From positions 3,720,001 through 3,784,000 of the forward strand of contig NZ_VIVK01000001.1 in the NCBI RefSeq assembly GCF_007828865.1: DNA of 64,000 bases, in the 5' to 3' direction. Position 1 is the stretch's first letter, and each line of letters begins with the position of its first letter. This document shows positions 7,271 to 10,992 of the stretch, piece after piece. This DNA comes from Kribbella amoyensis. Lineage in GTDB: Bacteria > Actinomycetota > Actinomycetes > Propionibacteriales > Kribbellaceae. Position numbers and translations under genes: made by a program. The notes under the pieces were generated by a model. That model made no database searches. It worked only from the letters and a program-made list of their open reading frames with translations, and was not told where the DNA came from.

Positions 7271-7382
7271 CGGACCTCCAGCACTCACCAACTCCGCGGA
7301 CACCGGCTTCCGCGCACGACTGCACGCTCAGCCTGGCCGTTGATGCGGAGATCGGGGTCGGTTCGTGAGTGCTGGAGGTCCG
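7271..7382. repeat. 112-bp element with 18-bp perfect terminal inverted repeats
   Basis: CGGACCTCCAGCACTCAC at 7271-7288 is matched exactly in inverted orientation at 7365-7382. A second inner pair, CTCCGC at 7292 and GCGGAG at 7347, nests within it. It fills the gap between tyrS and the BKACE gene, ending 7 bp from the tyrS stop. It could be a tyrS terminator, but arms of this length around a 76-bp core also look like a small non-autonomous mobile element or palindromic repeat. Confidence 0.7.
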
Positions 7383-7388
7383 GGCGTT

Positions 7389-8594
7389 TCACCTCAGTCG
7401 AATGCGGTGCCAGGTGCGGCGGCCGGAGCGGAGGATGGTGTCGGGTTGCAGAGTGGGCTTCTCGTCGGGGTCGGTGGACTTGGTGCCGTCGATCGTGACG
7501 GCGCCTTGGCGGATCAGGCGACGGAGTTCGGAGTTGCTGTCGTCCGGCCGCGCCGCTTGGAGGAGTTGCAGCGTGGTCGGGGACGCCGTGCTCACCACGA
7601 CCGCCGGGATGTCCTCCGGCTCGGCGCGTTCCGAGAAGACGCGGGTGAACGCGTCCAGCTCGGCCCGGGCGGCACCGGCGCCGTGGTACCTCGTGACGAC
7701 CGCGGCCGCGAGCTGCAGCTTGGCGTCCCGGGCCGCGGGACCACCGACAGCCGCCGAACCACCAAGGGCGGCGACCGTGGACAGCGGCAGCTCGGTGTAG
7801 ACCCGCGCGTACGTCTCCACCAGGTCGTCGGGCAGGCTCATCAGCTTGCCGAACTTGTCCTTCGGCGAGTCCGTCAGCGCGATGTAGTTCCGCAGCGACT
7901 TCGACTGTTTCGGGCCACCGTCGATTCCGGGCGTGATCGTGCTGGTGACGACGACCTGCGGCGCGGCGCCCAGGCGTTGCTGGAAGTGCCGGCCGAGTTG
8001 CTCGTTGAACAGCTGGTCCGACCCGACGATGGTGAGGTCGCTCTTCATCGCGAAACTGTCGTACCCCTGCAGCACCGGGTAGGTCAGTTCGTGCAGCGCG
8101 ATCTCCCGCCCGGCCGCGATCCGGGCCCGGAACATGTCCCGCGCGACCAGCTGCGCGTGCGTCACCTGGCTGAACAGCCCGAGCAACGTGGCCACGTCCA
8201 TCCCGCCGTACCACTCGGAGTTGCGCCGGACCTCGAACACGGCCGGGTCGGTCCGCAGTACCAGCGCCACCTGGTCCAGGAACGCGGCCGCGTTCACCTC
8301 GATCTCCTCCGGCGACAGCGTCGGCCGGGTCTCGCTGCGCCCGGTCGGGTCGCCGATCCGGGTGGTCAGGTCGCCGAGCAGGAACACCACCTTGTGGCCG
8401 AGATCCTGCAGCCCGCGCATCATCCACAGGTTCACCGCGTGACCGAGGTGGAGTTCGGGCGCGGTGCAGTCCACGCCGTACTTGATCCGCAGCGGCCGGC
8501 CGGATCTCAGCCGGTCGAGCAGGTCCTCGGCCCCGATGACGGTGTCGATGGTGCGGCGTAACCGGTCGATCACGGCCTGGGCGTCTTGGATCAT
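7389..8594 (-). CDS. tyrS: Tyrosyl-tRNA synthetase
   Basis: 401 residues. It charges tRNA-Tyr in the cytoplasm. The class I signatures are HLGH (residues 49-52) and KQSKS (229-233, the KMSKS loop); YPVLQGYDS (172-180) is the tyrosine-binding stretch. The last 60 residues (ELRRLIRQGAVTIDG onward) form the S4 RNA-binding domain. Length is slightly short of the bacillary-type enzyme and fits the compact bacterial subgroup. The gene is preceded by a 180-nt leader with a short ORF, alternative hairpins and an intrinsic terminator, so expression is probably controlled by attenuation. Confidence 0.95.
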   Translation of the reverse strand: MIQDAQAVIDRLRRTIDTVIGAEDLLDRLRSGRPLRIKYGVDCTAPELHLGHAVNLWMMRGLQDLGHKVVFLLGDLTTRIGDPTGRSETRPTLSPEEIEVNAAAFLDQVALVLRTDPAVFEVRRNSEWYGGMDVATLLGLFSQVTHAQLVARDMFRARIAAGREIALHELTYPVLQGYDSFAMKSDLTIVGSDQLFNEQLGRHFQQRLGAAPQVVVTSTITPGIDGGPKQSKSLRNYIALTDSPKDKFGKLMSLPDDLVETYARVYTELPLSTVAALGGSAAVGGPAARDAKLQLAAAVVTRYHGAGAARAELDAFTRVFSERAEPEDIPAVVVSTASPTTLQLLQAARPDDSNSELRRLIRQGAVTIDGTKSTDPDEKPTLQPDTILRSGRRTWHRIRLR

Positions 8595-8648
8595 CTCTTC
8601 CTCTCGTCAACAGGGGCGAGAGGCACCCACCCACGGCAGCCTCCCGGC

Positions 8649-8685
8649 AAACAAAAGAGGCAGGAACCGGATTGGTTCCCGCCTC
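8649..8685 (-). terminator. Intrinsic terminator inside the tyrS leader
   Basis: On the minus strand GAGGCGGGAACC and GGTTCCTGCCTC form a 12-bp stem (one G-U pair) with loop AATCC, followed by TTTTGTTTG at 8656-8648. It lies 55 nt before the tyrS ATG and after the leader ORF, the position expected of an attenuator. A T-tract is rare in this GC-rich sequence, which strengthens the call. Confidence 0.8.
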
Positions 8686-8688
8686 GGA

Positions 8689-8765
8689 GGCTCTGGGTGT
8701 GCAGCGTTCGTGGGGACTACAAGACCCCGGCTCCGCCCAGAGCCGGTCGATACACCACGCAACGC
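8689..8765 (-). promoter_or_regulatory. tyrS: Mutually exclusive hairpins of the tyrS leader
   Basis: In minus-strand order the segments are A GCGTTGCGTGG (8765-8755), B GGCTCTGGG (8744-8736), C CCACGAACGC (8713-8704) and D CCCAGAGCC (8697-8689). A can pair with C (10 bp, one bulge) and B with D (9 bp, perfect). The order A-B-C-D means the two helices cross and compete. D abuts the 5' arm of the terminator. This is the layout of a translation-coupled attenuator. Pairing was worked out by eye. Confidence 0.6.
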
Positions 8766-8773
8766 TTGGTCAC
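8717..8773 (-). CDS. Putative 18-residue leader peptide of tyrS
   Basis: GTG start, TAG stop; it reads MTKRCVVYRPALGGAGVL. The eighth codon is TAT, a rare tyrosine codon in this genome type, and lies in segment A-B of the leader. A -10-like TAGCCT ends six bases before the GTG, so the message would be leaderless. A ribosome pausing at TAT, or stopping at TAG, would disturb the competing hairpins. It is too short for statistical support; the evidence is position. Confidence 0.5.
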   Translation of the reverse strand: MTKRCVVYRPALGGAGVL

Positions 8774-8779
8774 GGGATC

Positions 8780-8785
8780 AGGCTA
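8780..8785 (-). promoter_or_regulatory. -10 box of the tyrS leader
   Basis: TAGCCT on the minus strand (TANNNT pattern) lies exactly six bases before the leader-peptide GTG, the spacing of a leaderless actinobacterial transcript. No good -35 box is visible. Confidence 0.4.
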
Positions 8786-8846
8786 CCAGCACCGCGATCG
8801 GACGCCGCTCGCGCGCGGATCTGGTGCCCCGCACTAACCTTGAGCG

Positions 8847-9419
8847 ATGAACACGGAGAAGGTCGTCCTGCTCGACGAGACCGGGCAGGTGGTCGGCAGC
8901 GAGGACAAGGCGGTCGTGCACCACGCCGCCACCCCGTTGCACCTGGCCTTCTCCAGCTACGTCCTCGACCCGGGCGGCCGCGTCCTGCTGACCCAGCGCG
9001 CGCACTCGAAGTCCACCTGGCCGGGCGTCTGGACCAACAGTTGCTGTGGGCATCCACTCCCGGGCGAACCGGTCGCGGCCGCGGTCCGTCGCCGGTTGGC
9101 GGACGAGCTCGGCCTGGTCGCCGAGGAGGTCGACCTGGTGCTTCCGGAGTTCCGCTACCGCGCCGAGATGCCGGAGGGGATCGTCGAGAACGAGCTGTGC
9201 CCGGTGTACCGGGTACGCACCTCGGGCGATCCGGTCCCGGACCCGGCCGAGGTCGCCGCGTACGAGTGGGTCGACTGGGCGGACGTCGCGGGGCGGCCGG
9301 GCCTGTCGCCGTGGTGCCTCCTGCAACTGGCCGAACTGGATCGCCTCGGCCCCGACCCGCTCGACTGGCCGACAGCCGATCCCGCGCTGCTCCCGCCCGC
9401 TGCCCGAGTCGGCCTCTGA
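8847..9419 (+). CDS. idi: Isopentenyl-diphosphate delta-isomerase, type 1
   Basis: 190 residues. It interconverts IPP and DMAPP, the universal isoprenoid units, in the cytoplasm. The catalytic Cys67 sits in TNSCCGHP and catalytic Glu116 in ENELCPVY, the same numbering as the E. coli enzyme; metal-binding His residues 25, 32 and 69 are also in place, within a Nudix fold. It diverges from tyrS. No other isoprenoid gene is adjacent, although a geranylgeranyl-reductase-like gene occurs at 42953. Confidence 0.95.
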   Translation: MNTEKVVLLDETGQVVGSEDKAVVHHAATPLHLAFSSYVLDPGGRVLLTQRAHSKSTWPGVWTNSCCGHPLPGEPVAAAVRRRLADELGLVAEEVDLVLPEFRYRAEMPEGIVENELCPVYRVRTSGDPVPDPAEVAAYEWVDWADVAGRPGLSPWCLLQLAELDRLGPDPLDWPTADPALLPPAARVGL

Positions 9420-10795: not shown

Positions 10796-10810
10796 ACGGC
10801 GCGCCCCCCG

Positions 10811-10979
10811 CGCTCGCCCTCCGCGCCCGCCCTCCGCGCCCGCCCTCCGCGCTCGCCCTCCGCGCTCGCCCTCCGCGCTCGCCCTCCGCGCTCGCCCTCC
10901 GCGCTCGCCCTCCGCGCTCGCCCTCCGCGCTCGCCCTCCGCGCTCGCCCTCCGCGCTCGCCCACCGTGCTCGCCCACCG
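10811..10979. repeat. Thirteen tandem copies of a 13-bp unit
   Basis: The unit CGCTCGCCCTCCG is repeated head to tail 13 times without gaps; units 2-3 and the last two carry single changes. Period 13 makes it non-coding in character: it reads as open frame on the minus strand only because it is GC-rich. It separates palindromic units 1 and 2. Confidence 0.95.
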
Positions 10980-10992
10980 CGCCTGCTTGGCC

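Follow-up and report, generated by a model that had tools for sequence, protein, structure and literature searches.

A probable tyrosine-responsive, ribosome-mediated attenuator in the leader of an accessory tyrosyl-tRNA synthetase gene of Kribbella

Upstream of a tyrosyl-tRNA synthetase (TyrRS) gene, tyrS, in Kribbella amoyensis (genome 8.1 Mb), on the minus strand of the window (the whole stretch of 64,000 nucleotides analysed here), lies a leader, 8785–8595, in which a −10 box, a start codon, a short ORF, complementary strands and a terminator precede the gene in that order. The question raised by this locus is whether a ribosome on the short ORF senses tyrosine and, if so, how its position could be passed on to tyrS. 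The leader begins with an extended −10 element, TGG TAGCCT (8780–8788; box TAGCCT, 8785–8780), the presumed promoter of a leaderless transcript. A consensus scan of 8550–8900 yielded no sigma-70 −35/−10 pair, so that the promoter call depends on the conserved −10 element only. Six bases separate TAGCCT from a GTG (8773–8771) that opens an ORF of 18 codons (MTKRCVVYRPALGGAGVL; 8717–8773, with a TAG stop), the eighth codon of which, the sole TAT of the ORF (8750–8752), is the presumed tyrosine sensor. Downstream of the TAT codon are strand A (CCGGCTCTGGG; 8736–8746), which can pair with either of two partners; strand B (GGAGCCGG; 8727–8734), which forms with A a local hairpin, A:B; and strand C (CCCAGAGCC; 8689–8697), which lies 47 bases downstream of the core of strand A and is a partner of A or of a further strand, E. 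There follow an intrinsic terminator with its T tail (TTTTGTTT; 8653–8685; hairpin 8685–8657, 12 pairs, loop of 5), strand E (GCCGGGAGGC; 8639–8648), a partner of C or F, strand F (GTGCCTCTCG; 8617–8626), able to pair with E or with the Shine-Dalgarno region, and strand G, the tyrS Shine-Dalgarno region CGAGAGG (8600–8606), which pairs with F. The terminator is the sole terminator-like site within 8550–8900 (mean in shuffles, 0.1), and of 200 dinucleotide shuffles of the 141-nt leader, 199 fold less stably than the leader itself (z −3.2). From 8847 a gene for isopentenyl-diphosphate isomerase points in the opposite direction, and the terminator therefore serves no neighbouring co-oriented gene upstream. 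A sequence-only reading of this DNA had claimed a −10 box, an 18-codon ORF with one rare TAT and a terminator before tyrS, all of which we find in place. Elsewhere in the window, positions 10802–10982 hold a tandem array of about 14 copies of a 13-bp unit (96% matches).

The gene itself (7389–8594, minus strand; ATG at 8594) encodes a protein that matches TIGR00234 with 270 bits and has 1h3e and 6bqy as its closest solved structures. The genome contains another TyrRS gene (G000:C3:225464-226645), whose product also belongs to TIGR00234 and is 29% identical to the product of the window tyrS. A weaker TyrRS-like match of the kind of this other enzyme is present in all 38 Kribbella genomes, and a standard TyrRS, 52–66% identical to it, is present in each of the 16 genomes searched from outside Kribbella, of which 14 have the full leader and two are of Actinopolymorpha. 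Relatives of the window TyrRS, at E up to 1e-60, occur in 26 of 394 genomes of the class. We conclude that the window tyrS product is, as judged from its sequence, an accessory TyrRS, a point missed in the sequence-only reading. Just 3′ of tyrS, at 7271–7382, lies an inverted repeat of 22 nt, its arms 95% complementary and 68 nt apart, possibly a terminator or the remnant of a mobile element.

Reading of tyrS upstream regions identified the same layout in 50 leaders, 34 from Kribbella and 16 from other Actinobacteria (Microbacterium, Herbiconiux, Aeromicrobium, Occultella, Brachybacterium, Isoptericola, Microlunatus and two Propionibacteriaceae-like MAGs). The TAT codon, the leaderless start, A:B and A:C are present in all 16 non-Kribbella leaders, and the terminator in nearly all of them. 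In all 50 leaders a start codon in frame with TAT lies 12–13 nt after the −10 box begins (GTG at a spacing of 12 in 31), and in 40 of the 50 a TG stands one base 5′ of the box. Three further Kribbella leaders (L167–L169) read the same way, with an in-frame TAT. Left out of the count were a chance match (L080) and two Actinopolymorpha leaders (L054, L065), which have a leaderless short ORF with a stop soon after TAT and which do not have strand A. Beyond this group, the tyrS locus of a member of the Nitriliruptorales (L070) has no such leader, and a leaderless Tyr ORF was found at none of 25 loci of more distant TyrRS genes, the leader-bearing G397 locus apart. The conservation of ORF and pairing in relatives, the lack of which was to refute the sequence-only reading, is thus observed, in 50 leaders.

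Five of the 50 leaders (L020, L045, L046, L064 and L099) gave no usable terminator call and were excluded from model building and from terminator tests; from the remaining 45, 30 leaders, 18 of them from Kribbella, were aligned (alignment A2) and used to build a covariance model. The model matches all 37 Kribbella genomes, out of 38, in which this tyrS is present, a figure to be read with the 18 Kribbella sequences among the 30 used for training; the remaining genome (G031) has neither this gene nor the leader. Some other matches in Kribbella (L170, L172, L173) have no leader and consist of a plain terminator or adjoin a tRNA-like stretch. In Kribbella jiaozuonensis (L097; G011:C1:1560017-1561193) the leader is intact and tyrS appears as two overlapping matches in different frames, which is a frameshift or an assembly error.

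The tyrosine codon is the most constant feature of the leader ORF. An in-frame TAT is present in all 50 leaders and TAC in none; the tyrS coding regions, by comparison, use TAC 346 times and TAT five times. No codon but TAT is invariant across 37 distinct contexts, neighbouring positions having three to 20 different codons. The codon lies outside every helix described here, and the core of strand A begins 8 or 9 nt past its first base in 50 of 50 leaders. In 41 leaders (group I) the core is 8 bases from the T of TAT and strand A is translated as Pro-Ala-Leu; in nine leaders (group II: L055, L057–L062, L064 and L098) the core is at 9 bases and strand A is translated as Gly-Ser-Gly or similar. 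Strand A is thus fixed in place and its reading frame differs between the two groups, which indicates that the RNA, and not the peptide, is conserved.

To determine whether the strands pair specifically with one another, we compared duplex energies of cognate segments with those of segments permuted among 14 representatives, four of them from Kribbella, in a test that ignores relatedness. The results indicate that A:B (p 0.0002), A:C (p 0.0014), C:E (p 0.0004), E:F (p 0.0004) and F:G (p 0.0002) are cognate-specific. Control pairs gave p values of 0.85 (C:D), 0.82 (A:T5), 0.29 (B:C), 0.27 (A:D) and 0.097 (C:T5), and downstream control pairs 0.46 (C:F), 0.63 (C:G) and 0.32 (E:G). The sequence-only reading had proposed two mutually exclusive helices, A:C and B:D, leaving B:D undefined. 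With D taken as the terminator loop and 3′ arm, the complementarity of B:D is weak and is nonetheless cognate-specific (−11.3 for cognate vs. −9.8 for permuted segments, p 0.0020); A:C and the B:D complementarity therefore stand, but antitermination by B:D is not borne out by the folding described below. In alignment A2, 11 of the 20 pairs of A:B and the terminator are changed on both sides (58 such cells), a number that none of 500 shuffles equalled and that slid versions of the helices, with only 1–6 such pairs, did not approach. No helix of the 30 aligned leaders is better conserved than the terminator, 97.5% of cells being paired and both partners being altered in nine of its 12 pairs. Compensatory changes in A:C are seen in L055, where GGCTCCGG pairs with CCGGAGCC, and in L061, where GGCTCTGAA pairs with TTCAGAGCC. 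Partners alternate along the chain B-A-C-E-F-G, and the chain thus has two alternating states; the pairing relay predicted from the sequences links the Tyr codon with the Shine-Dalgarno sequence, an extension of the chain that had escaped the earlier reading.

Folding with masks that represent a ribosome was used to follow the chain in its different states. With a mask ending 5 nt past UAU, the probability of A:B decreased from 0.71 to 0.07 in group I and 0.09 in group II, with A:C up to 0.89 in group I and 0.86 in group II. The predicted stalled state varies with the footprint assumed, being mostly A:C with masks of up to 7 nt and mostly C:E with masks of 9–12 nt. The competing helices A:B and A:C, one of the marks of an attenuator, are thus shifted by a mask placed on UAU or on the stop codon; a ribosome at the stop codon gives A:C at 0.96, and since this ribosome also favours A:C, the starved and the fed states are not cleanly separated. 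On the output side, an attenuator is represented by the terminator, with its compensatory changes, and by F, which pairs with the Shine-Dalgarno region. At equilibrium the terminator is fully formed in every ribosome state, and B:D as an equilibrium antiterminator was not reproduced, the terminator always winning; B:D appears transiently, in the stalled state only, with a mean of 0.61 pairs at +4 and 0 at +16 (45 leaders). Accessibility of the Shine-Dalgarno sequence over the masks is nearly flat on average (0.17–0.22; 50 leaders), and a simple Shine-Dalgarno switch by folding was likewise not obtained. In three Kribbella leaders the Shine-Dalgarno sequence opens with A:C, accessibility rising between the UAU and the stop masks from 0.34 to 0.64 (L008), from 0.00–0.01 to 0.36 (L018) and from 0.08–0.09 to 0.32 (L023). 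The mask and folding results together support the sensing half of the system well and leave the output half tentative.

We consider it probable that the leader is a ribosome-mediated, tyrosine-responsive attenuator of the accessory TyrRS gene, and the earlier suggestion of a tyrosine-sensing attenuator gains support from the recurrence of ORF, TAT and pairing in relatives. Comparison of sequences documents the parts: an ORF with an invariant UAU, a strand A at a fixed spacing from this codon, helices that compete, a terminator and an enzyme that is accessory. According to this proposal, transcription would start on or close to the GTG, and the 18-codon ORF would be read by a ribosome. In a shortage of Tyr-tRNA the ribosome would stall with the rare UAU in its A site, five or six bases 5′ of the core of strand A, where it would block A:B and re-partition A. 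Strands C, E and F and the Shine-Dalgarno strand would follow, giving A:B + C:E + F:G in one state and A:C + E:F in the other, with C and E separated by the intrinsic terminator. We infer the stalling, the direction of the response and the route by which the terminator is read through and, from analogy with known synthetase attenuators, that tyrosine starvation would raise tyrS. Most leaders contain a single Tyr codon, which counts against an attenuator.

How the ribosome position could reach tyrS admits two accounts. In one, control is translational: the relay A-C-E-F-G would free or hide the Shine-Dalgarno sequence, and the terminator would be unregulated or a secondary brake. The cognate specificity of C:E, E:F and F:G argues for this account, as do the opening of the Shine-Dalgarno sequence upon A:C formation in L008, L018 and L023, the lack of a convincing antiterminator in folding, and leaders that have lost the terminator: in Kribbella L045 and L046 nearly the whole stem is gone and the ORF, TAT, A, B and C are retained, and in L099 no terminator was found. 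Set against it are a mean accessibility that moves only from 0.18 to 0.20 over the 50 leaders and the standing of the terminator as the best conserved helix in the 30 aligned leaders; we regard it as a real but minority possibility. In the other account, classical antitermination, a ribosome at UAU would free B, and B:D would prevent termination. The cognate preference of B:D is in its favour, B resembles, by sequence, the loop-proximal part of the terminator 5′ arm in many lineages, and B:D has a noticeable probability in the stalled state only, when the first 4–6 nt of D are out. However, terminator hairpins of −17 to −24 kcal/mol compete with B:D at −8 to −21 kcal/mol, B:D is no better than non-cognate pairing in L018, L048, L052 and L053, and its probability is zero in every state once 16 nt are out, so that we judge this account rather unlikely.

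Two further explanations would dispense with a stall at a hungry UAU. Arrest by the nascent peptide YRPALGGAG in response to a ligand would accord with the near-constancy of the post-Tyr peptide within Kribbella, but the nine group II leaders keep strands A, B and C and translate them in another frame (for example, YPNGSGVSR, YLDGSGVSR); since one RNA is translated in two different frames, and since RNA pairing explains the constancy, we reject peptide arrest as very improbable. A T-box, or another RNA that binds tRNA or a ligand with no need of translation, has a precedent in Firmicutes, where T-boxes, RNAs that bind tRNA themselves and act independently of translation, often control tyrS, as in B. 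subtilis, whose tyrS T-box is mentioned in PMC2494555. Control of tyrS by charging of tRNA-Tyr would be common to those systems and to the Kribbella leader, but the latter has no T-box match: no Rfam family reached its gathering score in the window or at 17 related loci, and a permissive Rfam scan of the leader returned two weak snoRNA matches and nothing else, so that no T-box is recognised, in agreement with what the sequence-only reading had claimed. Moreover, every leader has its UAU in frame with a start codon where the transcript is presumed to begin, and we give an RNA of this type hardly any credence.

The putative tyrosine-responsive attenuator may have relatives. The leader model matches 52 of the 394 genomes of the class; among the best loci, which were read, one besides that of the window (L106) is tyrS, and many precede DAHP synthase genes. 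Matches of this model (R1) to DAHP synthase leaders have E values down to 1.7e-14, with A, B, C and the terminator in the same order, a likeness that may reflect common descent or convergence, and these leaders read, for example, Tyr-Trp-Arg-Phe. Some weaker matches adjoin DAHPS/chorismate-mutase-like fusions, and part of the weakest cover the terminator only. In the K. amoyensis genome itself a second match (L135; G000:C1:4557680-4557807; E 1.1e-5), not noticed in the sequence-only reading, lies before an aroFGH-type DAHP synthase gene and contains the leader VKRSYWRFFEWPALVPGDSADR, which has one Tyr, two Trp and two Phe codons and looks like one sensor for three aromatic amino acids. Similar DAHP synthase leaders are present in other Kribbella (L171, L174–L176) and in other families. 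Outside Actinobacteria, an ORF with at least two adjacent Tyr codons (YY to YYYY) together with a terminator was found at nine of the 29 tyrS loci with enough upstream DNA, as compared with seven of 1332 control windows: three in Chloroflexota (L069, L077, L083; YYY, YYYY), five in Spirochaetes (L092, L094, L095, L096, L102) and one doubtful case in Fibrobacteres. In the Chloroflexota leaders a strand complementary to A overlaps, as judged by eye, the 5′ arm of the terminator, and A:C could there be a true antiterminator.

Tentatively, and as a picture that we put not quite at an even chance, the six-strand relay B-A-C-E-F-G would report where a single ribosome stands, at one rare UAU codon, to the Shine-Dalgarno sequence of the spare TyrRS gene about 150 bases away, with the nested terminator as a second output; the leader would be one of an actinobacterial set of aromatic leaders, whose DAHP synthase sister reads Tyr, Trp and Phe together; and tyrosine attenuators of TyrRS genes of the same family would have arisen or persisted in Chloroflexota and Spirochaetes.

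The nearest parallel is trpRS1 of Streptomyces coelicolor, reportedly described by Vecchione and Sello in 2010 as the gene of an auxiliary, indolmycin-resistant TrpRS under ribosome-mediated attenuation. Both systems have an auxiliary aminoacyl-tRNA synthetase gene, leader-peptide attenuation and an actinobacterial host; the Kribbella leader differs in its tyrosine, its one rare UAU and its relay to the Shine-Dalgarno sequence, and the antibiotic link belongs to trpRS1. Attenuators of actinobacterial trpS, leuS, alaS and thrS genes are described in the available parts of Seliverstov 2005 (PMC1262725) and, for S. lividans, of PMC8079986; these resemble the Kribbella leader in having leaderless leader peptides, hairpins and sometimes a terminator, and the trpS attenuator MMTRTCTQLWRAA likewise has a single cognate codon. 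In the portions accessible, tyrS is absent from Table 4 of PMC8079986, and conserved structures for tyrosine operons are reported absent in Seliverstov 2005 (PMC1262725). The aroR leader of aroF in Corynebacterium glutamicum (Neshat 2014, as cited in the accessible text of PMC11802643) has Phe-Tyr-Phe upstream of a DAHP synthase gene, the operon being, according to the same partial source, unaffected by Tyr availability. The aroR leader, compared here by its description, shares aromatic codons with the tyrS leader, whose model also matches DAHP synthase leaders, but the target gene in Kribbella is tyrS. No leader-peptide attenuator of a tyrS gene was found in the literature searched, which was that accessible without subscription.

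The Kribbella leader thus appears to be the tyrosine version of a ribosome-mediated attenuation that is known for other synthetase genes. If this is correct, tyrosine would join the amino acids sensed by ribosome-mediated attenuation ahead of synthetase genes, and the leader would be a compact example, in which a pairing relay may couple one codon to two outputs. It would also explain how a spare TyrRS gene stays silent until the main enzyme fails, through starvation or a TyrRS inhibitor, as is reported for a spare TrpRS.
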